Positions 1,168 to 36,422 of a DNA stretch of 36,422 bases are shown here, one piece after another. The position numbers and the translations under genes were made by a program. The notes below the pieces were generated by a model that saw nothing but the letters and a program-made list of their open reading frames with translations, made no database searches and had not been told where the DNA came from. Source of the DNA: Clostridia bacterium (GTDB lineage: Bacteria > Bacillota > Clostridia > UMGS1883 > UMGS1540); the NCBI GenBank assembly GCA_017620205.1, contig JAFZQX010000030.1, forward strand, positions 1 to 36,422, written 5' to 3'. The first letter of the stretch is position 1; the number at the start of each line of letters is the position of its first letter.

Positions 1168-1249
1168 CAACATATAATCCAGTATAATTGCATTTAGGCG
1201 CTGAGTTGTTTACGGCGCTTATATCGCAATGAAATAAAGGAGAATGAAA

Positions 1250-1549
1250 ATGGATATCAAAACAAACAAAAACGGAAATGAATTCACAGTAGCGCCGGAG
1301 GGTGAAATAAATATACTAACGGCGCCGGAGCTTGAAGCGGCAATAAACAGCGGGATAGACGGCATATCGCTTTTAACGCTCGATTTTAGCAGCTGTGACT
1401 ATGTTTCGTCGGCAGGACTGCGCGTGCTGCTTGCGACTTTTAAGACGCTTAAAGCAAACGGTGCGGAAATGCGTTTTACAAACCTCGGCGAAAACTTTAC
1501 CGAGGTTTTAAGAAACACCGGACTTGACGCAGTTTTTGGCATTGAATAA
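1250..1549 (+). CDS. STAS-domain anti-anti-sigma factor (SpoIIAA/RsbV-like)
   Basis: A 99-residue single-domain protein. The beta strand LLTLDFSSCDYVSSAGLRVLL matches the signature of SpoIIAA/RsbV, in which a serine before the helix is phosphorylated by the partner kinase; by alignment with SpoIIAA the site is Ser54 (numbered from ATG 1250). In the family, the unphosphorylated form binds the RsbW/SpoIIAB-type kinase and frees its sigma factor or other client. ATG 1250 is preferred over ATG 1244 because AAAGGAG at 1236-1242 would be only one base from the latter and is seven from the former. It has its own promoter and terminator. Matching partners, a SpoIIE-type phosphatase and an RsbW-like ATPase, lie 18.7 kb away on the other side of the export locus; pairing with them is inferred. 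Confidence 0.9.
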   Translation: MDIKTNKNGNEFTVAPEGEINILTAPELEAAINSGIDGISLLTLDFSSCDYVSSAGLRVLLATFKTLKANGAEMRFTNLGENFTEVLRNTGLDAVFGIE

Positions 1550-1920: not shown

Positions 1921-2337
1921 ATGGAACAGTCATTATTCAGAAAAGAAAGCTTAAAGCGCGTTTCCTCGCCGGAGGAGTTAAATGAATATCTGCACATAAC
2001 GTCCCCGAAAAACTGGATAATTTTGGGTGCGGTTCTCTTGCTTATAGCAAGCCTGATTATCTGGAGCTGCGTGACGGCGGTTGAAAGCTATGCTGCGGGA
2101 GACGCCGAGGTTTGCGGCGGGGTTTTGACGCTGACATTTGACGACGCCGAGAAAGCCGGAAACGTAGAAGTCGGCATGAACGTAAAAGTAGGCGGTACGC
2201 TTTCGCCCGTAATGAGTATCGGCGAGGACGGCGACGGAAATATGTTCGCGGTTGCGGAAACTTCTCTTCCCGACGGCAGCTATGAAGCCCGCGTCGGCTA
2301 CAAGAGCACGAAGATAATAGAAATGTTTTTCAATTAA
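1921..2337 (+). CDS. Short HlyD-like adaptor of an NHLP/NHLM-type export system
   Basis: A 138-residue membrane protein. The start LFRKESLKRVSSPEELNEYL followed by HITSPKNW and one transmembrane helix (about residues 37-58) is the typical N-terminus of the NHLM bacteriocin-system secretion protein (TIGR03794, membrane fusion protein family). Full-length members are about 400 residues and carry a coiled-coil hairpin and lipoyl-like domain; here the chain ends at 138 with a short beta-rich extracytoplasmic part. The downstream gene follows after 11 bases with no sign of a frameshifted remainder, so this looks like a genuine short form. ATG 1921 is supported by GGAG at 1911-1914. It probably links the ABC exporter to the cell envelope. 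Family assignment is good; the role of the short form is inferred. Confidence 0.75.
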   Translation: MEQSLFRKESLKRVSSPEELNEYLHITSPKNWIILGAVLLLIASLIIWSCVTAVESYAAGDAEVCGGVLTLTFDDAEKAGNVEVGMNVKVGGTLSPVMSIGEDGDGNMFAVAETSLPDGSYEARVGYKSTKIIEMFFN

Positions 2338-2348
2338 GGATGATATAA

Positions 2349-4511
2349 ATGTGCAAACATAAAAAAGGGCCCGCCAAAGTTCCCGTTGTTATGCAGATGG
2401 AAGCGCTTGAATGCGGCGCGGCAAGCCTTTGCATGATACTTGCGTATCACGGAAAATGGCTTCCGCTTGAGCAGGTGCGCGCGGAGTGCGGCGTATCGAG
2501 GGACGGCTCAAACGCGGTAAATATTTTAAAAGCCGCAAGAAGCTACGGCCTTACCGCAAAGGGCTTTAAGACGGGCGTTGACGCTTTAAAAAACAGCGGA
2601 ACATTTCCGTGTATAATATTTTGGAATTTCAATCACTTTGTTGTGCTCTGCGGTTTTAGCGGGAAGTATGCTTATTTAAACGATCCCGCGCGCGGCAGTA
2701 TAAGAGTTACAATGGAGGAATTTGATAAAGCTTTTACGGGCGTATGCTTAAATTTCACGCCTTCGGAGAATTTTGAGAAAAGCGGCAAACGCAAAAGCAC
2801 GTTAGCCTTTGCGAGAAACCGTTTAAAAGGCGTAGGCGCGGCGGTGGCGTTTGTAATGGTTTTAGGTATGGCGGCCGCTTTGCTTTCGGCGATGAGTCCC
2901 GCGTTCTCCCGCTTCTTTACTGACAGGCTTTTAACGGGAGAAAACACGGAGCTTTTAATGCCGTTTATAGCGCTTGTCGCGGGCGTCAGCATATTCCAGA
3001 TACTGATCTTGGCTTTTCACGCGGCATATTCTGTTAAGGTAAACGGCAAGATGGCTGTTATAGGCAGCAGCTCGTTTATGTGGAAGATACTCCGTATGCC
3101 GATGGAGTTTTTCTCACAGCGCATGGCGGGCGATATTCAGCTTCGCCATAAGGCAAACGTTGAGATTGCCGAAATGATAGTAAATACCTTGGCGCCGCTT
3201 TTACTGAGCGCCGTAATGATGGTATTTTACCTTGTTGTAATGATGCGTTACAGCTTTGTTTTAACGCTGATAGGGCTTATAAGCGTTTTAATAAATCTCT
3301 TTATGAGCCGCCTGATTTCCGAAAAGCGCGTAAATATAACGCGCGTAAGCATGAGAGATGAGGGAAAACTTGCGGCGGCTACCGTTTCGGGTATCCGCAT
3401 GATAGAGACCATAAAGGCGGGCGGTACGGAAAACGGCTATTTCAGCCGTTGGGCAGGCTTTCAGGCTTCCGTAAACGCGCAGGATAAAAGGTTTGAAGAG
3501 CTAAATCAGCGCCTCGGAATAATCCCCCCGTTTATAACATTACTTACAAATTCCGCAGTGCTTATTATGGGCGTTTGGCTTTGTATGAAGGGCGAGTTTA
3601 CGCTCGGTATGGTAACTGCTTTTCAGGCGTTTTTGGTTTCGTTTATGAACCCCGCCATGACGCTTATAACGGCCGGACAGACGCTTCAGGAAATGCGGAC
3701 GCAGATGGAGCGCGTTGAGGACGTTTTAGAGTATCCCGAGGATACACGCGTATCGGGCGCCTCGGGCGCCGAACTCGAAGAATATGAAAAGCTCGGCGGC
3801 GCGCTGGAGCTTAAAAATGTAACGTTTGGCTATTCCCGCCTTGCGGAGCCTTTGATAGAGAATTTTTCGCTCAGCGTAAAGCCGGGCGGGCGCGTTGCCA
3901 TTGTCGGCGCATCGGGCTGCGGCAAGTCAACGGTTGCAAAGCTTATTTCGGGACTTTATCAGCCCTGGAGTGGAGAGATACTTTTTGACGGCATACCCGC
4001 ATCCGATATAAACCGCGATATTTTCACGGGCAGCGTTGCGGTTGTCGACCAGGACGTTATCCTTTTCGAGGATACAATAGCTAATAACATTAAAATGTGG
4101 GACAGCACTATAGAAGATTTTGAGATGATAATGGCCGCTATGGACGCGCAGATACATGAAGACATTATGCTGCGCCCCGGCGGATACCAAAGCAAGCTCA
4201 CGGACGGCGGCCGCGATATATCGGGCGGACAGCGGCAAAGGCTTGAAATAGCCCGCGTTCTTGCGCAGGACCCGCACATAATTATTATGGACGAGGCGAC
4301 AAGCGCGCTCGACGCGAGAACGGAATACGAGCTTGTTAAAACGGTTAAAAGACGCGGCATGACGTGCATTATAATAGCACACCGCCTTTCAACGATACGC
4401 GACTGCGACGAGATTATAGTTCTTGACCACGGCAAGGTCGTTGAGCGCGGAACGCACGAAGAATTATACGCAAAAGGCGGATATTATACTGAGCTTATTT
4501 CAAGCGATTGA
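2349..4511 (+). CDS. Peptidase-containing ABC exporter (C39 peptidase, NHLM ABC1 type)
   Basis: A 720-residue protein that cuts the leader from a double-glycine-type precursor and exports the rest. Residues 1-140 are a C39 cysteine peptidase: oxyanion Gln16, catalytic Cys22 (QMEALECGAASLCMI), His96 (NFNHFVVL) and Asp112 (LNDPARG) are all present, so the protease should be active. Residues about 155-445 hold the six-helix ABC membrane domain. The nucleotide-binding domain has Walker A GASGCGKST (520-528), signature ISGGQ (624-628), Walker B Asp648-Glu649 and the H-loop His678. Order and motifs match NHLM_micro_ABC1 (TIGR03796). It follows the adaptor by 11 bases with GGATGAT as the ribosome site. 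The two small peptides at 7266 and 9354 are the obvious cargo candidates. Confidence 0.93.
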   Translation: MCKHKKGPAKVPVVMQMEALECGAASLCMILAYHGKWLPLEQVRAECGVSRDGSNAVNILKAARSYGLTAKGFKTGVDALKNSGTFPCIIFWNFNHFVVLCGFSGKYAYLNDPARGSIRVTMEEFDKAFTGVCLNFTPSENFEKSGKRKSTLAFARNRLKGVGAAVAFVMVLGMAAALLSAMSPAFSRFFTDRLLTGENTELLMPFIALVAGVSIFQILILAFHAAYSVKVNGKMAVIGSSSFMWKILRMPMEFFSQRMAGDIQLRHKANVEIAEMIVNTLAPLLLSAVMMVFYLVVMMRYSFVLTLIGLISVLINLFMSRLISEKRVNITRVSMRDEGKLAAATVSGIRMIETIKAGGTENGYFSRWAGFQASVNAQDKRFEELNQRLGIIPPFITLLTNSAVLIMGVWLCMKGEFTLGMVTAFQAFLVSFMNPAMTLITAGQTLQEMRTQMERVEDVLEYPEDTRVSGASGAELEEYEKLGGALELKNVTFGYSRLAEPLIENFSLSVKPGGRVAIVGASGCGKSTVAKLISGLYQPWSGEILFDGIPASDINRDIFTGSVAVVDQDVILFEDTIANNIKMWDSTIEDFEMIMAAMDAQIHEDIMLRPGGYQSKLTDGGRDISGGQRQRLEIARVLAQDPHIIIMDEATSALDARTEYELVKTVKRRGMTCIIIAHRLSTIRDCDEIIVLDHGKVVERGTHEELYAKGGYYTELISSD

Positions 4512-5010: not shown

Positions 5011-7191
5011 ATGGGTTGGTTTGACGATCAAATACGCACCCGTAAGGATAAAGACAGGGAAATATTTGAAGACGCCATTTTAGAGATGGCATCTGTCGTT
5101 GTCGGCAGACACGGCGCTGACGCTTTAAGGGATAAGTTTATAGTAACTAAAGAGGTCATCGGTGATATTTTAAAATATTATCATTTCAGACCCATAGAAA
5201 TTCCCGATTCCATAAAAGAGCCGGAGGAGCAGCTTGAATACGCGCTCCGCCCGCACGGGATCATGTACAGAGAGGTTTCGCTCACGGGGGATTGGTATAA
5301 AAGCGCGTTCGGGCCGATGATAGCATACCGCGAGGAGGACGGTATGCCCGTTGTGCTTTTCCCGAAGCGGTTCGGCGGCTATTGTTGGTATGATAAGGGC
5401 GGAGAAAAGGTTACGGCCAATAAAAACACGGCTTTATATCTTTCTTCCGAAGCTCTTTGCTTTTACACTCCTCTGCCGCTTAAAAAACTCGGCATATCGG
5501 ACCTTTTTAAATTTATGCGGGGCTGTCTTAATTTCAGTGACTATGCTCTTTTAATAGGACTTACATTGGCGGTTACCGTTGCGGGCTTGTTTTTGCCGCG
5601 CATAACGAAGATGCTGACGGGCTTTGTTTTGGAAAGCGGAAGCGGAGTAGTTCTTATAGCCACTGCCGTATTTATGCTTTGCGTTATAGTATCGTCACAG
5701 CTTTTAACGTCTGCGCGCGAGCTTGCAATGGCAAGGATCAGAATTAAGGCGTCGCTTCCTATGGAGGCCGCTATGATGGCGCGCCTTATGAGCCTTCCCG
5801 CACCGTTTTTTAAAAAGTTCAGCGCGGGCGAGCTTGCAAGCCGCAGCGGAGCTGTTAACAACCTTTCGACGATTATGCTCGGCGGCGTGCTTTCAACGGG
5901 ACTTACCGCTATAGCTTCGCTTTTATACATAAAACAGATTTTTGATTATGCCCCCTCGCTCGGCTTTATAACCTTTGCAATAACGCTTCTTATGCTTGGC
6001 GTTACGCTCTTTTCGGGCTATCTGCAGACAAAAGAGGACCGCGGGTATATGAATGCCGACGCAAAGGAAGCGGGTTTCAGCTACGCAGTTATAGCGGGCA
6101 TAAGAAAGATAAAGCTTTCGGGCGCAGAAAAAAGAGCTTTTGCGCGCTGGGCAAAAAAATACGCAGAAGGCGCGGAGATAAAATATAACTCCCCCCTGTT
6201 TTTAAAAATACATACGGCGCTTTTGCAGGGCGTTTCGCTTATAGGTATGCTTGCCATTTATTTTGCGGCGGGCAAAGCGGGCGTCAGTCCCTCTTCGTAT
6301 CTGGCATTTACAGCCGCATACGGCGCGCTTACGGGCGCGGTTACGGTGTTTGCGGACTCTGTTATAGAGGCGGCGCAGATACGCCCGATACTCGAGATGG
6401 CAGAGCCTATTTTGGAAGCGGAGCCGGAAGTTGCGGAAGAAAAAGAAATAGTTACAAGGCTTTCGGGCAGCATAGAACTTTCAAACATTTCTTTCAGATA
6501 TAATGAAACGATGCCGTATCTTTTAAATGATCTTAATATTAAAATAAAACCGGGCGAATACGTTGCAATTGTCGGCAGAACGGGCTGCGGCAAATCAACT
6601 CTTATGCGTTTGCTGTTGGGCTTTGAAACGCCCGATAAAGGCGCCGTTTATTACGACAGACGCGATATACGCTCGCTGGATTTAAAATCACTCAGGCGCA
6701 AGATAGGCGTTGTAATGCAGGACGGAAGCCTCTTTAGCGGAAGTATTTTTTCAAACATAACGGTTTCCTCGCCGAATCTGACGCTTGATGACGCATGGGA
6801 CGCGGCGGAAAAGGCCGGCATTGCGGACGATATACGCGATATGCCAATGGGAATGCATACATTTATAAGCGATGAGCAGGGCGCAATTTCGGGCGGGCAG
6901 AAGCAGCGCCTCATGATAGCAAGAGCTATTGCGGCAAAGCCGAAGATACTCTTTTTTGACGAAGCGACAAGCGCGCTTGATAACAAAACGCAAAAGCAGG
7001 TATCGGACTCGCTCACTGGGCTCAAATGCACGCGCCTTGTCATAGCGCACCGCTTGTCAACTGTTAAAGAGTGCGACAGGATTCTGGTACTCGACGGCGG
7101 CAAAATAGCCGAAGCGGGCACATATGACGAGCTGATAGATAAGGGCGGCATATTCGCGGAGCTTGTTGAGCGCCAGAGAATAGATATTTAG
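5011..7191 (+). CDS. Second ABC exporter subunit without peptidase domain (NHLM ABC2 type)
   Basis: A 726-residue ABC permease/ATPase. It begins MGWFDDQIRTRK and carries an N-terminal region of about 165 residues without the C39 Cys/His pair, then the membrane domain (roughly 180-455, starting near LLIGLTLAVTVAGLFLPRI) and an ATPase domain with Walker A GRTGCGKST (522-530), signature ISGGQ (about 626-630) and Walker B LFFDEATSALD. This layout is typical of NHLM_micro_ABC2 (TIGR03797), which is thought to work with the C39-bearing partner. The frame is open farther upstream from a TTG at 4879, but ATG 5011 is chosen because GGGAGGGAGG lies at 4995-5003 and because the family starts with this MGWF-type sequence. 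The gene is separated from the first ABC gene by 499 bases, unusual for this pair. Confidence 0.92.
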   Translation: MGWFDDQIRTRKDKDREIFEDAILEMASVVVGRHGADALRDKFIVTKEVIGDILKYYHFRPIEIPDSIKEPEEQLEYALRPHGIMYREVSLTGDWYKSAFGPMIAYREEDGMPVVLFPKRFGGYCWYDKGGEKVTANKNTALYLSSEALCFYTPLPLKKLGISDLFKFMRGCLNFSDYALLIGLTLAVTVAGLFLPRITKMLTGFVLESGSGVVLIATAVFMLCVIVSSQLLTSARELAMARIRIKASLPMEAAMMARLMSLPAPFFKKFSAGELASRSGAVNNLSTIMLGGVLSTGLTAIASLLYIKQIFDYAPSLGFITFAITLLMLGVTLFSGYLQTKEDRGYMNADAKEAGFSYAVIAGIRKIKLSGAEKRAFARWAKKYAEGAEIKYNSPLFLKIHTALLQGVSLIGMLAIYFAAGKAGVSPSSYLAFTAAYGALTGAVTVFADSVIEAAQIRPILEMAEPILEAEPEVAEEKEIVTRLSGSIELSNISFRYNETMPYLLNDLNIKIKPGEYVAIVGRTGCGKSTLMRLLLGFETPDKGAVYYDRRDIRSLDLKSLRRKIGVVMQDGSLFSGSIFSNITVSSPNLTLDDAWDAAEKAGIADDIRDMPMGMHTFISDEQGAISGGQKQRLMIARAIAAKPKILFFDEATSALDNKTQKQVSDSLTGLKCTRLVIAHRLSTVKECDRILVLDGGKIAEAGTYDELIDKGGIFAELVERQRIDI

Positions 7192-7265
7192 AAAATTAAA
7201 AAAATATTGCCAAAAATCAAAGTGATTCGGATAAATAAATATAAAGGAAAAGAGGTGATACGTAT

Positions 7266-7466
7266 ATGGATGCGGAAAAACTGCTTGGGAAGCTTTTTGA
7301 CTTCCAGCGGTTCCAGCATGAGCCGACGCTAAAAAGCATAATAGATGAAACCGAGGAGCGATATGAAGGTAAAGAGCTAACGGATGACGATTTGGGCGGC
7401 ATCTCGGCGGCGGGCGATGCATATACGGGTATCACCGATCCCCTAAAACGGGATAAAAAGCCGTGA
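7266..7466 (+). CDS. Small double-glycine-like precursor peptide 1 (candidate export cargo)
   Basis: A 66-residue peptide with AGAGGTGAT at 7251-7259 as ribosome site. The N-terminal 41 residues are charged and helical-looking; then comes ELTDDDLGGISAAGD (residues 37-51), which resembles the end of Nif11/NHLP/bacteriocin leaders (E-L-S-D-E-x-L-x-x-V-x-G-G). A C39 peptidase could cut after Ala49-Gly50 or nearby, releasing a hydrophilic tail beginning DAYTG and ending KRDKKP. The same DLGxxSxAGDxxxG pattern is found in the peptide at 9354. It lies 74 bases after the second ABC gene, and its stop overlaps the GTG start of the sigma factor, so the two are translationally coupled. Cargo status and cut site are inferred. 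Confidence 0.75.
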   Translation: MDAEKLLGKLFDFQRFQHEPTLKSIIDETEERYEGKELTDDDLGGISAAGDAYTGITDPLKRDKKP

Positions 7467-7942
7467 CAAATATAAGCTACGAAAAGCTATATAAAGAATA
7501 CCGCGAAAAAGTGCTCGCCTATCTTAAAAGCAGAGTTGCGGGCGCGGAGGAAGCAGAGGACATATGCCAGGATGTGTTCGAGCAGATACTTAAATCCCTC
7601 CCGCGGTACGATGCGGAGCGTTCCTCCGTTTCAACCTGGATATATAATATAACCCGGTTCACTTTGATAGATTATATAAGAACAAAACATGAAGGTATGC
7701 CGCTTCCCGAAAATATGGCGGTTTTGGATGATATAGAGGAAAAAATAATAAGAAAAGAAACGCTCGAAAACCTTGCCAAAGTTTTAAAAGCAATGGATAG
7801 GGAAGAGAGAGATATTATAATCCTTCGCTACTATAAGGGATATACCCTGACGGAAATAGCAAATCTCACGGGAATAAGCTACGGCATGGTAAAGGTAAAG
7901 CACAAAAAAGCGCTTAAAAAGATAGGTGAAGAGCTTAAATGA
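7463..7942 (+). CDS. ECF-like RNA polymerase sigma factor
   Basis: A 159-residue sigma-70-family protein. Region 2 spans about residues 8-72: EAEDICQDVFEQILKSL is the core-binding helix, and STWIYNITRFTLIDYIR the -10 recognition helix. Region 4 spans about 100-157: REERDIIILRYYKGYTLTEI is followed by a helix-turn-helix (IANLTGISYGMVKVKHKKAL). There is no region 1 or 3, as in extracytoplasmic-function sigmas. It starts with GTG at 7463, sharing four bases (GTGA) with the stop of peptide 1, and its own stop shares ATGA with the protease gene. No classical membrane anti-sigma gene adjoins it. It may direct transcription of this operon; the RsbW-like ATPase at 21458 is a conceivable antagonist, but that pairing would be unusual for ECF sigmas. 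Confidence 0.9.
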   Translation: MTNISYEKLYKEYREKVLAYLKSRVAGAEEAEDICQDVFEQILKSLPRYDAERSSVSTWIYNITRFTLIDYIRTKHEGMPLPENMAVLDDIEEKIIRKETLENLAKVLKAMDREERDIIILRYYKGYTLTEIANLTGISYGMVKVKHKKALKKIGEELK

Positions 7943-9303
7943 AGAAAACGAGACTTAAAAAAACAGCTGTTCTTACCCTGTTTTGGGCGGCGCTGATGTT
8001 AATAGTATTCAGCATTTCCGCAAGCGCGGCAAAGGGCGATTACATAGTAAAATATAATGAAAACGCCGTGCGCCTAATGGGAGAGCAAAGCGAGCCTTTC
8101 GATGTTGTAAGCGAAGAGGAAATGAAAAGGCTCGCGGAGGCGGGACTTTTAAAGTGGTATGAGGAAGACGGCGAAATGACGCTTTTGGATGATATGCAAA
8201 CGTATAATTATCCTGCCGATAAATGGGATTTTCCGATGATAAATGCGGACGCGGCATTTGAGCGCGGCTATCTCGGGCAGGGCGTTCGCGTAGGAGTTAT
8301 CGACTCCGGCGTAAACGCGCATGAAGATTTAGCGGACAGTTTAAAAAGAGGTCATTGCTACATGGAAAACGGCAGCCCGACGGACACCGCCGATGAATAC
8401 GGGCACGGAACAAGCGTTGCGGGACTTATAGCAGGCTCCGGGAAAAACGGATATATAGGTGCCGCGCCGAAAGCCGAAATAGTGCCTTTAAAGGTAACGG
8501 ACGGAAAACCGGTTGCGGTTAGCACCGTCTGCCGCGCCATATACGGCGGAATAGATGACTTTAACTGCGATATACTGAATATGAGCCTCGGTATAAAGGT
8601 AGAGTCCGAGGCGCTGAAAGAAGCTGTGGAACACGCAGAGGAGCAAGGCGTTTTACTGGTATCCGCTGTCGGCAACAACGGAAGCCGCGCAAAGCTGTAT
8701 CCCGCGGCATATGATTCCGTAATAGGCGTTGGCGCGGTAGACGAAACCGAAGAGATTTATTATCACTCCAACCATAACGAAAGCGTGTTTATAACGGCGC
8801 CTGGCGTAAATGTTAAAACTCTGGGCAGATTCAGCGGTTACGAACTGAAATCGGGCACATCATTTGCCGTTCCTTTTGTAACTGCAGCCGCAGCCGTGAT
8901 GCTGAGCATTGACGGCGCGCTGACGCCGCGTGACATAATGAGAATTCTTTCGGAAACGGCGGCCGATAAAGGCGATAACGGCTATGACGAATATTACGGC
9001 GCGGGCATCCTCCAAATAGGCGGCTGTGTTACGAAGCTTTTAAACCGCAAACTGAGGTTTCTGCCCGAAACGGGTGCGGCTTCGCAGATACAAAATTTGA
9101 CAGATACTGATTTAAGCTGCAGATATATGATGGCGGAATACGGCGAAAACGGCGTCTGCACAGGCGTTACCGCTTGTGATTTGACAATACCGGCAAACGG
9201 CACCGCGGAAATAGAAGCGCCCAAGGAAAACGCACAATACGGTCAGTTCGTTTTTAAAACAGATAAGTTAGAACCTCTTGCAAGCGCGAGAAAATCGCGC
9301 TGA
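7939..9303 (+). CDS. Secreted subtilisin-like serine protease (S8 family)
   Basis: A 454-residue protein with a signal peptide (residues 1-31, ending SISASAA), a short pro-region (about 32-105) and an S8 catalytic domain. The triad is visible: Asp122 (VGVIDSGVN), His156 (YGHGTSVAG) and Ser308 (SGTSFAVPF), with the oxyanion Asn at 246 (AVGNNG). Residues about 370-454 form a beta-rich C-terminal extension without a membrane anchor or SLH repeat. It starts inside the end of the sigma gene (ATGA overlap). Likely jobs, all inferred, are maturation of the exported peptides outside the cell, processing of the giant surface protein downstream, or signal generation for the sigma factor. An AGCGCG/CGCGCT hairpin (9283-9301) covers its last codons, but it has no T run. 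Confidence 0.93.
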   Translation: MKKTRLKKTAVLTLFWAALMLIVFSISASAAKGDYIVKYNENAVRLMGEQSEPFDVVSEEEMKRLAEAGLLKWYEEDGEMTLLDDMQTYNYPADKWDFPMINADAAFERGYLGQGVRVGVIDSGVNAHEDLADSLKRGHCYMENGSPTDTADEYGHGTSVAGLIAGSGKNGYIGAAPKAEIVPLKVTDGKPVAVSTVCRAIYGGIDDFNCDILNMSLGIKVESEALKEAVEHAEEQGVLLVSAVGNNGSRAKLYPAAYDSVIGVGAVDETEEIYYHSNHNESVFITAPGVNVKTLGRFSGYELKSGTSFAVPFVTAAAAVMLSIDGALTPRDIMRILSETAADKGDNGYDEYYGAGILQIGGCVTKLLNRKLRFLPETGAASQIQNLTDTDLSCRYMMAEYGENGVCTGVTACDLTIPANGTAEIEAPKENAQYGQFVFKTDKLEPLASARKSR

Positions 9304-9353
9304 AAGAGTTAATAAAAAAATAAAATAATATATAAAGAAAAGGAGAAAAAATT

Positions 9354-9545
9354 ATGTTCAACAAATCCAAAAAGAACAAAGAAGAAAAAAAGGTTCAGGA
9401 CGCAGCTATGCAGGCAAAAGATGAAGCTATGCAGGAAGTAGCCGATGAAGATCTCGGCGAGGTAAGCGGTGCGGGCGATCCTTTCGCAGGCCATGCGCGC
9501 GTATCAACAAAGAAAATTGACAGCTCGGTAAGAGAAAAAGGATAA
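9354..9545 (+). CDS. Small double-glycine-like precursor peptide 2 (candidate export cargo)
   Basis: A 63-residue peptide with a strong ribosome site (AAAGGAGA, about 9338-9345). The N-terminus is very rich in Lys, Glu and Ala (NKSKKNKEEKKVQD). EVADEDLGEVSGAGD (residues 28-42) aligns position by position with ELTDDDLGGISAAGD of the 7266 peptide. The predicted tail after Gly41 is hydrophilic, DPFAGHARVSTKKIDSSVRE plus two residues, with no Cys and few Ser/Thr, so lanthionine formation is not possible and azole formation would have little substrate. I recall Clostridia small proteins with a similar GAGxPF and RVP-PID pattern after such leaders, but could not check. It sits between the protease and the giant protein genes in the same transcript. 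Confidence 0.72.
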   Translation: MFNKSKKNKEEKKVQDAAMQAKDEAMQEVADEDLGEVSGAGDPFAGHARVSTKKIDSSVREKG

Positions 9546-19876: not shown

Positions 19877-19919
19877 ACCGCAAATATCCACCCGCCCCGG
19901 CGGGTGGATATTTGGCGGT
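19877..19919 (+). terminator. Strong hairpin ending the giant-protein operon
   Basis: AAATATCCACCCGCC (19882-19896) pairs perfectly with GGCGGGTGGATATTT (19899-19913), and outer ACCGC/GCGGT arms extend it. The A-rich 5' arm and TTT 3' arm resemble a terminator, although the T run is short. It is only 23 bases from the next start codon, so some readthrough is plausible. Confidence 0.6.
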
Positions 19920-19942
19920 ATCAGCTGAAAGGAATTCATGCT

Positions 19943-21421
19943 ATGATTGAATACGGGCAATACTTTGATATGGCTGAATACAGGCTATACCTTGAACTGC
20001 TGTTTGTTGGATTTGTCCTGTTGTCCATACTATTTATAAACAACATCTTTCTTTACAAGCAGAAGATAACCGACTATATTTCTCTTATGCTGATTTTCGG
20101 CATAGCTATGAGCGCATTTGAAATTATATGGACTATCCTCGATGCGTTTCCGAACACGACGGCTGCAACCTTCGCCTCGGCGTGCGGCTACAGTCTCGCG
20201 TTTGTGCTCTTTGCGCTTTTCTTAAACCGTTATCTTATAGACCGTTTGGGCTTAAAGCCGAAGAAAATCCATATTATTATTTTCTATGTGCTGCCTTTTA
20301 TAGTGTTTTCGCTGGTTTGTCTGACAACATGGTGGACTAAGTGGATGCTTTTTGTGGACGAAAACGGAATGGTGCAGACGGGAGAATACTTTGATTCTGT
20401 TTGCTACTGGCTGATTCTCTCATATCTTTTTTCACCTCCGCTTTGGGCTATTTATTATCTTACAATCGGCAGGAAACATAAACCCGCCGAAGCGGAAATA
20501 TCGGGCAGTCTTATTGCTTTCGGATTTATGGTGCCCGTTTTATACTGGCTTGAGCTGGTTGTTGTCGGTGATGTCGGGCAGCTTTATGAAACCATGTCTC
20601 TGCCTGTTTCCATATCGCTTGTGTATCTTGTCGCAAACGTCAGCACACACAGTATTTTAAGCTCCCGCGCAAAGATCGAGGCGGTTGAAACGGATTTGCG
20701 CATAGCGGCAAAAATCCAGACCGACGCACTGCCGCCCGTAGCGCCCGAGTTTGCAGATCACCTTGAGATAAACCTTCGCGGCAGTATGAACACGGCTAAA
20801 GAAGTCGGCGGCGATTTCTATGACTATTTCGCAATAGACAAAGACCGCATCTGCTTTCTTATAGCAGACGTTTCGGGCAAAGGAACTCCGGCGGCGCTCT
20901 TTATGATGACGGCTAAGACCGTTATTAAAGACTATGCTTTGACAAGGAGCACCACGTCCGAGATTTTCACCGCAGTAAACGAGCGTCTTTGCGAAAATAA
21001 CGAAGCGGGAATGTTTGCAACTGCCTGGATAGGCATTGTCGATACGCGCACCATGACGCTTCAGTATACAAACGCGGGACATAATTATCCGTTGCTGCTC
21101 GCAAAAGGCAAAAGCTGCGAAATGCTTAAAACCGTACACGGTCTTTTTTTGGCGGGAATGGAATATACGCAGTACAAGCAAAGCGAGCTAAAGCTAAATC
21201 CCGGCGACAGACTGCTCCTTTATACAGACGGCGTTACGGAGGCGCACAACCGTGAGGACGCTCTCTACGGCACAGACCGCCTTGAAAAGGTTTTGGAGAG
21301 CAGCAAAGACGACTCGGGCGATGAGGTTTTGGAGCGCATTTTCGCCGATGTAAACGTTTTTGCAGACGGAGTGGCGCAGTTTGACGATATTACTATGATA
21401 GTTCTGTCCATTAAAGAATAG
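19943..21421 (+). CDS. Membrane-bound SpoIIE-type PP2C phosphatase
   Basis: A 492-residue protein. The N-terminal half has about seven transmembrane helices (approximately 16-38, 45-66, 75-98, 110-128, 151-174, 188-208, 216-236), a 7TM sensor-like layout. A short helical linker (VETDLRIAAKIQTDALPP) leads into a PPM/SpoIIE phosphatase domain with metal-binding Asp291 (GGDFYDY), Asp309 (ADVSGKG), a TDGVTE motif and the final DDITM. Proteins of this type dephosphorylate STAS proteins such as the one at 1250 and so turn on partner-switching. ATG 19943 is chosen over an in-frame ATG at 19904 because the earlier codon lies inside the terminator hairpin and AAAGGAA at 19928-19934 serves the later one. 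The RsbW-like gene follows by 36 bases. The signal sensed by the membrane part is unknown. Confidence 0.92.
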   Translation: MIEYGQYFDMAEYRLYLELLFVGFVLLSILFINNIFLYKQKITDYISLMLIFGIAMSAFEIIWTILDAFPNTTAATFASACGYSLAFVLFALFLNRYLIDRLGLKPKKIHIIIFYVLPFIVFSLVCLTTWWTKWMLFVDENGMVQTGEYFDSVCYWLILSYLFSPPLWAIYYLTIGRKHKPAEAEISGSLIAFGFMVPVLYWLELVVVGDVGQLYETMSLPVSISLVYLVANVSTHSILSSRAKIEAVETDLRIAAKIQTDALPPVAPEFADHLEINLRGSMNTAKEVGGDFYDYFAIDKDRICFLIADVSGKGTPAALFMMTAKTVIKDYALTRSTTSEIFTAVNERLCENNEAGMFATAWIGIVDTRTMTLQYTNAGHNYPLLLAKGKSCEMLKTVHGLFLAGMEYTQYKQSELKLNPGDRLLLYTDGVTEAHNREDALYGTDRLEKVLESSKDDSGDEVLERIFADVNVFADGVAQFDDITMIVLSIKE

Positions 21422-22170: not shown

Positions 22171-23028
22171 ATGACACACTATAAGTACCGTCCTGTTTTA
22201 TTCTTTGCACTCGCTTATCTTTTTACATGGATTTTCTGGATACCGGCGATTTATTTACCGGAGAGTATCGGACAGATACTGATGCTGCTTGGGTTAATAG
22301 CTCCTGCAGTTATATCAACTTTGTTCATTTTGCTTTCGGGCTCAGAATCGCTAAAGCAAGATTTGAAGAACAAGATAATAGGGTTTTATAAAGTCAATTG
22401 GCTAAACGTCCTGCTTGCCGTATGCGTTTTTGCGGCGGTTGTGGCTGTGTCTATTCTGCTTTCGCTCGCTTTCGGTCAATCGATCAATCAGTTTTCTTTT
22501 ACCGAAGATTTTTCATTCACGGGCATTGGTATCGGCGGCGCTTTTCTTACAATTTTGCTTGCATCGATCATTGAGGAAGTCGGCTGGAAAGGCTACTGCG
22601 AAGATTCCATCGGAAACTATATGAACTGGGTTTGGGAATCGATGCTGTTCGGCGCGTTGTGGTCGTTCTGGCATTTTCCGCTTATTTTCATACAGGGAAC
22701 GTACCAGGCGGGATTAACGGTAAATCCCTTGTATGTGGTTAATTTCTTTATCAGCGGCATACCGCTGGGATTCGTTATTACGTGGGTATATCTTGTCAGC
22801 GACAGGTCAATCCTTGCTTGTATGGTGTACCATCTGTTTGTCAATTTTATGCAGGAAAAAATCGCGATGACACCTGAAACCAAGTGCGTTGAAACTATTG
22901 TTATAACAGTTGCCGCCGCGCTTATCGTTCTTGCAAACAGAGAACTCTTTTTTGAAACAAAACACATCGGGAAAATGCCGGAATACAAGTACGGGGATTT
23001 AAACGTTAAGACAAATTCCGGTTTGTAA
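22171..23028 (+). CDS. CPBP-family intramembrane metalloprotease (CAAX-like), copy 1
   Basis: A 285-residue protein with about seven or eight membrane helices. The CPBP motifs are visible: Glu135-Glu136 (EEVGWKGY, with Lys/Gly where many members have Arg), His168 (WSFWHFPLIF) and His221/Asn225 (YHLFVNFM), which together make the metal site of the Abi/CAAX-like glutamic protease fold. In bacteria such proteins serve as bacteriocin self-immunity factors, peptide-processing enzymes or anti-sigma proteases. The ribosome site is AGAGGAAATGA just before ATG 22171. It has its own promoter and terminator, so it is not co-transcribed with the export locus. A link to the exported peptides by position is inference. 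Confidence 0.85.
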   Translation: MTHYKYRPVLFFALAYLFTWIFWIPAIYLPESIGQILMLLGLIAPAVISTLFILLSGSESLKQDLKNKIIGFYKVNWLNVLLAVCVFAAVVAVSILLSLAFGQSINQFSFTEDFSFTGIGIGGAFLTILLASIIEEVGWKGYCEDSIGNYMNWVWESMLFGALWSFWHFPLIFIQGTYQAGLTVNPLYVVNFFISGIPLGFVITWVYLVSDRSILACMVYHLFVNFMQEKIAMTPETKCVETIVITVAAALIVLANRELFFETKHIGKMPEYKYGDLNVKTNSGL

Positions 23029-23385: not shown

Positions 23386-24216
23386 ATGAAAAAAGCAATT
23401 GGTTTTATGAAGGGGCATCCGCTGTTTACAGGCATCATAGGTGTTACAATCGGCGTTGCCGCAACCAAAATTTTTGTGGAAAACACTATAGGCAGGATAG
23501 CTTATATGAGAATCATACTTGCTCTGGCTATGTGCACTTTCGTGTATCTGATTTCGGGAGAAAAATCCTTTGAGAAGTGCCACAAAACAACCGGATACGT
23601 GTTCAAATGGGGACTTTTGACCATAATACCGGAGATGTTGATGCTTTTAGGCTTTTTATTTATACTGGTATCGGGAAACACCAATGTGGCTGCGGGATGG
23701 CCGCTGAGAGTTCTGCTTGCTGTCATAGCATGTGTTTTTGTAGGGCTTTTTGAGGAGCTTACATTCAGAGTAACCATAAATGATGCATTATTATACAGGT
23801 TCAGAAATAATAAGAACATTTTCGTTTGGATCGCAATAATAAGCTGTCTTGTATTTGGAGCTGTTCATGTAATATCGGGCAAAATATTCGGCTCTCCGGC
23901 GACGCTCGGCATGGCGGCGCTTAAAATCTTGTCCTCCGCACTTTGCGGATTATGCTGGCTTATTCTTTACTGGAAAACCAGAAACGTCTGGGGCATTGCA
24001 CTTATACACGCGCTGTGTGACTTTACCACGTTCCTTCAGTCGGCATTAACCGAAACGCAGGTAAGCCTTGGCGGTGCGGAAAATTATACCGGGGCAAACG
24101 CAGGCGGTCTGGGAGTATATCTGTTCCAGATAGTATTTGGCTTGGTCTTTGTGATAATCCTGTGGAAAAAGGTCGGTAAAACCATTGACTTCGATGAGAT
24201 CCGCAAGACATGGTAA
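23386..24216 (+). CDS. CPBP-family intramembrane metalloprotease (CAAX-like), copy 2
   Basis: A 276-residue membrane protein starting at ATG 23386 with AGGAGGA at 23374-23380. It shows the full set of CPBP motifs: Glu123-Glu124-x3-Arg128 (FEELTFRV), His161 (FGAVHV) and His208 with Asp212 (HALCDF). It has about eight membrane helices and a short loop near the C-terminus (TETQVSLGGAENYTGANAGG) before the last helix. It is only distantly similar to the neighbour at 22171 and the two have separate control regions. Possible roles are bacteriocin immunity or prenylated/peptide-signal processing; nothing in the sequence decides. A TTGACA at 23286-23291 with a weak TTTACT 17 bases on may be its promoter. 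Confidence 0.85.
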   Translation: MKKAIGFMKGHPLFTGIIGVTIGVAATKIFVENTIGRIAYMRIILALAMCTFVYLISGEKSFEKCHKTTGYVFKWGLLTIIPEMLMLLGFLFILVSGNTNVAAGWPLRVLLAVIACVFVGLFEELTFRVTINDALLYRFRNNKNIFVWIAIISCLVFGAVHVISGKIFGSPATLGMAALKILSSALCGLCWLILYWKTRNVWGIALIHALCDFTTFLQSALTETQVSLGGAENYTGANAGGLGVYLFQIVFGLVFVIILWKKVGKTIDFDEIRKTW

Positions 24217-35113: not shown

Positions 35114-35189
35114 GGGCTATTAGCTCAGCTGGGAGAGCGCAAGGTTCGCAATCTTGAGGTCAGGGGTTCGATCCCCCTATGGTCCACCA
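35114..35189 (+). tRNA. tRNA-Ala (anticodon CGC)
   Basis: A 76-base cloverleaf including encoded CCA. The acceptor GGGCTAT (35114-35120) pairs with ATGGTCC (35179-35185), allowing G-T pairs. The D stem is GCTC/GAGC, the anticodon stem CAAGG/TCTTG around TTCGCAA gives anticodon CGC (codon GCG), and the T stem AGGGG/CCCCT encloses TTCGATC. A strong promoter precedes it. Its last 13 bases are shared with the end of the convergent recombinase gene. Confidence 0.95.
35177..35189. other. Probable attachment-site half at the tRNA-Ala 3' end
   Basis: The recombinase on the minus strand ends at TAG (complement of 35177-35179), inside the tRNA. Its last residues, NGGP, are encoded by the tRNA T-arm/acceptor end and the few bases after it. 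This is the layout seen when an element has integrated into the 3' end of a tRNA gene and restored it. The exact core and the other attachment half are not visible in this window. Confidence 0.5.
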
Positions 35190-36422
35190 TTCACTTTTAA
35201 AGGCGAACTCTGATAATCGTTTGAATTATCGGAGTTCTTCTTTTTTGCGATTTTTTCTATATCTGAAAAATCAATGCTTTTTTCGCCGTCTTTGTAATTG
35301 AATGTGATTATAATCTTATCTTCATAAACGTAAACACTGTTTATAAACACATCAATAAGCTTTTGTTTCTGTATCTGATCTGTTATATCGGTATTTTGGA
35401 ACCGACCTATCCAAAACTCTATTTGCTCTTTTGTTAATACCGGGTGCTTAATCTGCTCTCTGGCAATAGATGTCTGCAAACCGTTCTTTTCCGCTTCCAA
35501 GCTCGATAGTTCTGTCTTTGTGCTTTCGGTTATAATCCCCTGCTTGATTGCGGCAATCATATTACTGATTTCTTTTTCAATTTGTTTGAGACGGTTTTCC
35601 ATAGATTTCAGCACAGAACTTGTATTCGATTGCATATTGAAGCAAGTATTTACAATTTTTTTAATCAGCTTCTTGTCTTTCAGCATTTCCAGTGTACTGA
35701 CAAGGACAGTGCTTTCAAGTAAATCCTTCTTGATTCTTTTCTTGCTGCAAGATTTTTTGTTTTTTGCGTTGCGGCAGCAATAATACCTGTGTTTCGTGCC
35801 TGTCTTGCTCGTTCCGCTGACGCCTATCATGGAATTTCCGCAAAGACCGCAGAATATCTTTCCCGTCAGGATATATTTATCTTCCACTTTCTTAAAATGG
35901 GCAGGCTTTTTCTTGTTTGCTTCCAAGCGCTTTTGGCATTTGTCAAACAATTCTTGTGATACGATCGGTTCAAATGCGTTTTCGACAACGGTATCTTTGA
36001 AACGATATTCACCTAAATACCGTCTGTTTTTAAGAATTGTTGTTATAAAGTTATATCCGGGAATTTTGCCATGGCTGTTCTTGATACCGCTTGCCTTTAA
36101 TGAGTTTAGTATACTCTTTGTTCCTTCGCCGTCCGCATAGCGTGTAAAGATTTCTTTTACAATAGGTGCATTTGTAGGATCAATCTGAAAATGTTTGTTC
36201 TCGTCGATGATATATCCAAAAGTTTTGCAGCCTCCGTTGAACTTCGCATTTAATGCATTTTCCGTCATGCCGCGAATAATCTTTTGCGATAATTCTGCTG
36301 AATAATACTCCGCATACCCTTCAAGCATGGATTCGAGAATAATCCCTTCGGGACCGTCCGATATGGTTTCCTTTGCCGATATAACTCTAACACCGTTTTT
36401 ACGCAAAACGCTTTTATAATGA
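35177..36422 (-). CDS. Large serine recombinase (site-specific integrase), N-terminus outside the window
   Basis: At least 414 residues, open to the right edge of the window. The visible part starts in the end of the resolvase domain (GVRVISAKETISDGPEG and AEYYSAELSQKI), continues with the recombinase domain (GYIIDENKHFQIDPTNAP, IVKEIFTRYADG, LKNRRYLGEYRF), then the zinc beta ribbon (FCGLCGNSMIG with YYCCRN and a later Cys), a coiled coil (about 270-320) and a C-terminal DNA-binding part. The catalytic Ser of the N-terminal domain is not in the window. A TTG near 36404 is an internal Leu codon, not a credible start. Such enzymes integrate and excise conjugative elements or phages. It converges with, and overlaps, tRNA-Ala. 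Confidence 0.9.
   Translation of the reverse strand, partial: HYKSVLRKNGVRVISAKETISDGPEGIILESMLEGYAEYYSAELSQKIIRGMTENALNAKFNGGCKTFGYIIDENKHFQIDPTNAPIVKEIFTRYADGEGTKSILNSLKASGIKNSHGKIPGYNFITTILKNRRYLGEYRFKDTVVENAFEPIVSQELFDKCQKRLEANKKKPAHFKKVEDKYILTGKIFCGLCGNSMIGVSGTSKTGTKHRYYCCRNAKNKKSCSKKRIKKDLLESTVLVSTLEMLKDKKLIKKIVNTCFNMQSNTSSVLKSMENRLKQIEKEISNMIAAIKQGIITESTKTELSSLEAEKNGLQTSIAREQIKHPVLTKEQIEFWIGRFQNTDITDQIQKQKLIDVFINSVYVYEDKIIITFNYKDGEKSIDFSDIEKIAKKKNSDNSNDYQSSPLKVNGGP

Follow-up and report, generated by a model that had tools for sequence, protein, structure and literature searches.

A conserved small protein with an exporter leader-like end, encoded on an ECF sigma factor gene in Clostridia: a candidate link between peptide export and transcription

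The double-glycine leaders of the Nif11/NHLP group, which are handled by peptidase-containing ATP-binding cassette (ABC) transporters (PCATs; TIGR03796/TIGR03797; Haft 2010, PMC2887384; LahT, PMC6363468), follow a 13-residue consensus with Leu at positions 2 and 7, Val or Leu at position 10 and Gly-Gly at positions 12-13 (PMC2887384, Fig. 6). In PCAT1 and LahT, residues L-7 and L-12 (and position -4) set the affinity for the leader, and the demand for Gly-Gly is explained by a very narrow cleft (PMC6959990, PMC6363468). The LahT150 protease cuts after GG, GA and GS (PMC6363468), and GA is a standard C39 cleavage site (PMC6363468, PMC10885120). Here we describe an export locus of this type in a 36,422-nucleotide stretch of a Clostridia bacterium genome (GenBank assembly GCA_017620205.1, contig JAFZQX010000030.1; this whole stretch is called the window below), and two small proteins encoded in it, peptide 1 and peptide 2. 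Features shared with the Nif11/NHLP leaders are L(-12), a stretch of acidic residues, L(-7), V/I(-4) and the type of exporter; peptide 2 fits with GA at its end. Peptide 1 differs from those leaders in several ways: AA(G) replaces GG, the conserved N-terminal half is unrelated, the tail is charged and does not resemble a core peptide, and, in the Clostridia set, its gene lies on the gene for an extracytoplasmic function (ECF) sigma factor.

Described regulators of sigma factors offer a second set of comparisons. NepR is about 60 residues long, and the anti-sigma factor FlgM leaves the cell through the flagellar type III secretion apparatus. Like FlgM, peptide 1 would make a sigma factor respond to the condition of a secretion machine, and it would differ from FlgM in seeming to be built for docking to an ABC exporter, probably uncut. 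The class II anti-sigma factors, such as NepR and the cytosolic part of CnrY (PMC8103513), are like peptide 1 in size, in two predicted helices and in an ECF-adjacent gene; the likeness comes from these three features only, since peptide 1 has no sequence match to them and carries a PCAT leader-like end that they lack. In Clostridia, toxin and bacteriocin genes are driven by sigma factors of the TcdR/UviA type, according to work cited in PMC8103513. That group and the present locus both devote a sigma factor to peptides or proteins that are exported, but the one here is a typical ECF sigma factor with a dedicated, putatively leader-mimicking partner. We know of no leader-mimic partner in the TcdR/UviA group.

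Peptide 1 belongs to a family (A1) with the consensus LFDFQRFxxNxRLxxxI...LSDxDLExVxAAG, for which a search of 80 loci fetched by their exporter, together with the loci compared earlier and the window, returned 27 hits, 26 of them distinct, in related NHLP export loci (individual loci are given L-numbers below, and genomes G-numbers). The named records that bear the closest exporters are Clostridia metagenome-assembled genomes, many of ruminant origin. Nothing useful matched peptide 1 in Pfam, NCBIfam, the PDB or plasmids, and we regard the family as a previously undescribed and testable candidate family of regulatory peptides. Its gene keeps company with that of the sigma factor. Of the 62 loci in which the sequence runs on for 5 kb or more past ABC1, the exporter subunit with the C39 domain, on its downstream side, 23 have both the peptide and the sigma gene, 36 have neither, two have the peptide only and one has the sigma gene only (Fisher p 1e-13); the two peptide-only loci are L053, which reaches a contig end, and L100, in which the sigma reading frame contains stops. 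In all 24 readable junctions the start of the sigma gene overlaps the stop of peptide 1, by 1-23 nt. The overlap is 4 nt in the window, where the sigma gene and the S8 protease gene that follows overlap by 4 nt as well. Peptide 1 therefore has the gene position of a soluble anti-sigma factor next to an ECF gene (23 loci, with overlaps), and the overlap of the genes suggests that peptide 1 and sigma are co-expressed.

On this footing we propose, with a probability of roughly 0.4, that peptide 1 acts as a regulator which binds sigma and ends in a leader mimic that cannot be cut, and so ties gene expression to the state of the exporter. The N-terminal half, with two predicted helices and the motif LFDFQRFxxNxxLxxVI, would bind sigma, likeliest as a small soluble anti-sigma factor, and the C-terminal half would be a degenerate PCAT leader that keeps the residues for docking in the C39 groove and has AA(G) where a cut needs Gly(-2). 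Because the docking residues are kept and Gly(-2) is lost, peptide 1 should bind ABC1 uncut. A free exporter would then dock peptide 1 and release sigma, which would transcribe its own operon and, in several relatives, the precursor and exporter genes too, while precursor crowding the exporter would return peptide 1 to sigma. Binding to sigma, the sign of its effect, docking without cleavage and the feedback itself are the steps that we infer.

The leader-like end of the family carries much of this proposal. Mean pairwise identity within the family is 41% in the N-terminal half, 63% in the leader-like segment and 15% in the tail. In six close pairs the ratio of nonsynonymous to synonymous differences (pN/pS) is 0.21-0.35 for the N-terminal part plus AAG and 0.26-1.28 for the tail; the low values, a sign of purifying selection in the relatives, indicate that the peptide 1 gene is real and its N-terminus constrained. 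L38 (-12) is invariant, L43 (-7) is kept as Leu in at least 90% with Met as the alternative, and position -4, I46 in the window, is usually hydrophobic. Among the 16 canonically spaced members positions -2/-1 are AA in 13 and GG in three, and the remaining members have a spacing one residue shorter, with Asn at -4 and the motif NAAG followed by E, D or G. AAG occurs in every peptide 1 member, and precursors in the same loci keep GG. Other small open reading frames (ORFs) in about 80 related loci gave 98 GG, 2 GA and 4 other matches to a strict leader pattern, the two GA leaders being peptide 2 and its homologue in L037, and those of the same loci gave 153 GG with a relaxed pattern; the relaxed tally leaves out peptide 2, and the figure of 154/155 in the second Fisher test is approximate. 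Peptide 1 of the window thus has the docking residues L-12, L-7 and a hydrophobic -4, and has Ala where PCAT precursors have Gly(-2). We also considered peptide 1 as an ordinary precursor and disfavour this, as the loci hold separate GG precursors. As an observation of its own, L101, L064, L059, L062 and L052, loci with neither peptide 1 nor sigma, encode many small GG-leader proteins with tandem KYGNGxxR...LVN repeats, which we take to resemble the Faecalibacterium MAM protein.

The same features could be read in another way, with peptide 1 as an exported, pheromone-like signal. It would be cut at AA|G or AG|[DE], and its variable tail would serve as a messenger whose level acts back on the sigma circuit. 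The full leader geometry, the short tail with its 15% identity (against 41% for the N-terminus), the D, E or N that mostly follows AAG, the tail pN/pS near 1 in two of the six close pairs and the true GG of three members all agree with such a signal. Yet the exporter is served by GG precursors in the same loci, the C39 sites given in the literature examined do not include Ala(-2), we identified no receptor gene, the charged tail holds no Cys in A1 members, and the long conserved N-terminal half would be superfluous. We consider an exported signal unlikely, and return to the sigma-binding regulator as our preferred reading.

Promoter-like elements bear on the part of the proposal that concerns transcription. 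An ECF-like promoter, TCTAACAAAA-N13-CGTATAAATAA, lies upstream of peptide 1 in 9 of the 10 NAAG loci, and is found also before GG precursors in L110, L082 and L106 and before the run of STAS and export genes in L082; 23 sites scored over threshold where shuffles gave an expectation of 8, and the top scorers all precede these genes. The window has an element of the same architecture and different sequence (Table 1), with a similar one in L037.

Outside the exporter-selected set the family is rare and keeps its neighbours. In genomes that had not been selected by exporter it was found, besides the window, in 1 of 27 of the order and 2 of 390 of the class, in ABC/sigma contexts, and the hits in G021 and G281 correspond to L034/L082 and, by coordinates, to L110. 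A sample of the phylum gave two weak matches, L129 and L130. L129 is a cluster with a leader-type GG precursor and an ECF sigma gene, then an overlapping gene for a 110-aa peptide that ends in ELSDDELEGISAAGDSW...; this peptide has a different N-terminus, and the gene order is swapped relative to that of peptide 1 and sigma. L130 holds ABC1, ABC2, sigma, an outer-membrane-efflux-like gene and an 87-aa peptide (...FDFS...LDDEALDMVAAAGNP), together with leader-type precursors, a large membrane phosphatase-like gene and STAS. Remote homologues of the latter type (A3, FDFS...AAGNP) occur in a second lineage, with a relative in 33 of the 101 genomes of the family of L130. AAG is invariant among the A3 peptides, and in most of the A3 loci that were fetched a sigma gene lies nearby, usually with ABC1/ABC2. 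The A1 and A3 profiles align over their full length (probability 85%, E 5.8e-6), and no Pfam, NCBIfam or PDB family covers either of them. AAG peptides thus accompany ECF sigma genes in other lineages as well, adjoining them in L129/L133 and in L154.

That the two halves of peptide 1 have two partners is suggested by distance comparisons, in which the N-terminal half tracks sigma once ABC1 is removed (partial r 0.45), and the leader-like segment correlates with ABC1 after removing sigma (0.41) and hardly at all with sigma (0.15), although partial Mantel tests are lenient when the sequences are related, so that these correlations are suggestive only and count on this score among the weaknesses of our proposal. 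The link of the leader-like segment to ABC1 would also be expected of an exporter-side adaptor or plug, a pseudo-substrate that gates export from the C39 groove and never contacts sigma, the linkage of the genes being one of co-regulation, and the A3 copies that stand beside leader-type precursors with no sigma gene nearby (L155, L159, L164) would suit it too. It is improbable in our judgement: the gene overlaps that of sigma in every readable Clostridia case, peptides in L129 and L154 are sigma-linked despite other N-termini and gene order, and a pure plug has no need of the conserved FDF helix pair.

Several observations weigh against the sigma-binding regulator. In L100 (15700-16300) the sigma gene is broken by stops and peptide 1 is intact, and L088 has a sigma gene with no peptide 1. 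The GG members L043, L094 and L102 might be cut. No anti-sigma family in Pfam, NCBIfam or the PDB matched peptide 1, and its AlphaFold model consists of two helices predicted at low confidence (pLDDT 66). A3 peptides with no sigma gene nearby occur in L152, L155, L156, L159 and L164, two of which look solitary, and some of them (L155, L159 and L164) adjoin leader-type precursors. Further copies of the promoter element were sought in the window and its genome as signs of a wider regulon, and only the one at 7207 was close; at <=2-3 mismatches it is the single match in both, and because it is unique in the genome, this genome gives no sign that sigma controls the exporter. The sign of the effect is also relevant, since that of an antagonist is our inference, and peptide 1 could instead work in favour of the ECF sigma factor, as a cofactor, as a help in its folding or by stabilising it. 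The translational overlap, with peptide 1 first, would be natural for such a partner, but anti-sigma factors are frequent among the small helical proteins whose genes neighbour those of ECF sigma factors (class II anti-sigma domains: NepR, CnrY; PMC8103513), and L088 retains sigma in the absence of peptide 1; we give a positive role little credence. The sigma-binding, leader-mimicking regulator might have a wider counterpart: ECF sigma factors of peptide export in Firmicutes may be governed by anti-sigma proteins that end in an uncleavable leader mimic (GG replaced by AAG), with the occupancy of the C39 exporter setting sigma activity. This would be a control principle previously undescribed, and we put it forward more tentatively than the proposal for peptide 1 itself.

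An earlier note on this DNA, made from its letters and ORFs, had set the two peptides side by side as leader ends with variable cores that share a DLGxxSxAGDxxxG motif, with AAG or GAG followed by Asp in place of the double glycine, and had suggested a distinct C39 cleavage class. The 15-mers in question, ELTDDDLGGISAAGD of peptide 1 (7374-7418) and EVADEDLGEVSGAGD of peptide 2 (9435-9479), are where they had been placed, in ORFs with good ribosome-binding sites (RBS), and their likeness is real: 9 of 15 residues are identical, the top value among 1,418 non-overlapping pairs of small ORFs on the + strand of the window, and 8/15 was reached by 1 of 3,000 shuffles of peptide 2. This likeness reads as that of two PCAT leader ends. 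Both peptides carry the motif, but the Gly after DL and the final xxxG are not conserved among relatives, which keep L(-12), the acidic run, L(-7) and AAG in the case of peptide 1 and a G[GA] end in that of peptide 2. Alignment with the consensus and the local GG precursors gives 13-mers of E-L-T-D-D-D-L-G-G-I-S-A-A and E-V-A-D-E-D-L-G-E-V-S-G-A, so that peptide 1 has AA and peptide 2 has GA at -2/-1, G-D stands at +1/+2 in both, and the "xAGD" reading is off by one residue. Since GA is a standard C39 site, the two peptides do not form one cleavage class. The idea of leader end plus variable core survives in that both are leader-type proteins in an NHLP ABC1/ABC2 locus; it does not describe peptide 1, a conserved sigma-linked small protein unlike the local GG precursors. 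An enrichment of the AAG motif near such exporters, which the note had expected, was borne out: AAG is conserved, and present in 25 of 62 related loci. We also considered a common origin of the two peptides beyond the leader end and found it unsupported, as their N-termini, tails and partners all differ.

The window's C39 domain shares 70% identity with LahT150 (PDB 6MPZ) and has Q16, C22, H96 and D112 all in place, and mean C39 identity to LahT is 75.2% in loci with an AAG peptide and 74.7% in those without one. A distinct C39 class is therefore unsupported: the domain is LahT-type with its catalytic residues intact, and the loci with peptide 1 are no more divergent. That both peptides are bacteriocin-type precursors of one new class cut at AG-D, as the nine identical leader-end residues and the presence of a C39 exporter at the locus had made plausible, now seems highly improbable, given the register that puts GA in peptide 2, the undiverged LahT-type domain, the GG of the local precursors, and the separate families with separate partners, sigma for one and a giant surface protein for the other.

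Peptide 2, which has hydrophobic residues at -12, -7 and -4 and an end of the GG/GA/GS type, reads as an ordinary GA-leader export precursor that is paired with the giant surface protein. A PCAT exporter (ABC1/ABC2) is co-encoded with peptides of this type in the window, L031, L036 and L037. The relatives of peptide 2, found in L037, L121, L123, L125 and L031 (the last from the same genome as the window), have GG or GA and then cargo like GAFDNVPRVPEHKIDDNLKSKI, and adjoin large secreted proteins. In L037 the ORF after the peptide 2 homologue encodes a surface protein whose signal-peptide start is similar. L031 (G000:C36, 2394-14381) has a second NHLP ABC1-ABC2 pair, then a 2,516-aa surface protein and a 51-aa GG peptide with the cargo ...DLPPTVPENPLDPSIYNNI, which parallels peptide 2 and the giant protein of the window. 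Because the cargo of peptide 2 is conserved and not hypervariable, a role as partner of the surface protein seems likelier for it than one as a bacteriocin.

Table 1. Positions of the features of the export locus in the window.
Feature	Positions	Strand	Evidence and remarks
STAS anti-anti-sigma-type protein	1244..1549	+	Pfam STAS, E 1.5e-15
HlyD-like accessory protein, short NHLP type	1921..2337	+	TIGR03794, E 4e-7, N-terminal part only; start at ATG 1921 assumed
ABC1, exporter subunit with C39 peptidase domain	2349..4511	+	TIGR03796, E 3.7e-282, over cut-off
ABC2, second NHLP exporter subunit	5011..7191	+	TIGR03797, E 1.2e-215, over cut-off; inner ATG start assumed
Putative ECF-type promoter of the peptide 1-sigma operon, TTGCCAAAA...CGGATAAATA	7207..7237	+	Spacing as in 9 related loci
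Peptide 1, 66 aa	7266..7466	+	ATG, RBS aagaggtga; sigma-linked conserved small protein with leader-like end
Peptide 1 leader-like 13-mer, ELTDDDLGGISAA	7374..7412	+	L(-12), L(-7), I(-4), AA replacing GG
ECF sigma factor	7463..7942	+	TIGR02937, E 3.9e-32, Sigma70_r2 and r4; GTG start
S8 subtilisin-like protease with hydrophobic N-terminal segment	7939..9303	+	Pfam PF00082, E 1.6e-44
Peptide 2, 63 aa, GA-type leader peptide	9354..9545	+	ATG, RBS aggag; homologue in L037
Peptide 2 leader end, EVADEDLGEVSGA	9435..9473	+	V(-12), L(-7), V(-4), Gly(-2)-Ala(-1)
Peptide 2 predicted cargo, GDPFAGHARVSTKKIDSSVREKG	9474..9542	+	Aligns with GAFDNVPRVPEHKIDDNLKSKI-type cargo of relatives
Secreted surface protein, 3,424 aa	9590..19864	+	Pfam: Calx-beta, Big_2, InlB-type repeats, SLH

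The genome from which the window comes has 2.34 Mb in 46 contigs, and the genes of the window run in the order STAS, HlyD-like, ABC1 (C39), ABC2, peptide 1, ECF sigma, S8 protease, peptide 2, 3,424-aa surface protein and SpoIIE phosphatase. A STAS gene lies near the HlyD/ABC genes in the majority of related loci. Genes for STAS, SpoIIE-type phosphatase and RsbW-like ATPase proteins recur near NHLP exporters, frequently with no ECF sigma gene, and have the look of a partner-switch module; examples are 1244-1549 with 19904-21421 in the window, 2354-4817 in L037, 7388-8165 in L129 and 5789-8425 in L130. The S8 protease gene was not found in the other loci surveyed, except for a remnant of its C-terminus (YGQFVLETATMTPLANAKK) between sigma and the peptide 2 homologue of L037 (10500-10680), a locus that has lost the protease and retained the peptide. 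Further downstream in the window lie two genes for CPBP (Rce1-like) membrane proteases (22171-23028 and 23386-24216), a type frequently tied to bacteriocin immunity or maturation. A 409-aa ORF on the minus strand (35177-36406), which resembles the C-terminal part of a large serine recombinase, may mark the end of a mobile element at the edge of the window.

Many Clostridia of the gut and rumen carry export loci of the Nif11/NHLP type, and in the literature searched we found no description of how they are switched on; an ECF sigma factor with a leader-mimic partner would be a directly testable answer. If this is true, it would to our knowledge be the first known case in which a C39 ABC exporter itself does the sensing for the genes that it serves. 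The peptide 1 peptides would also be natural, genetically encoded candidate inhibitors or probes of LahT-type C39 proteases.

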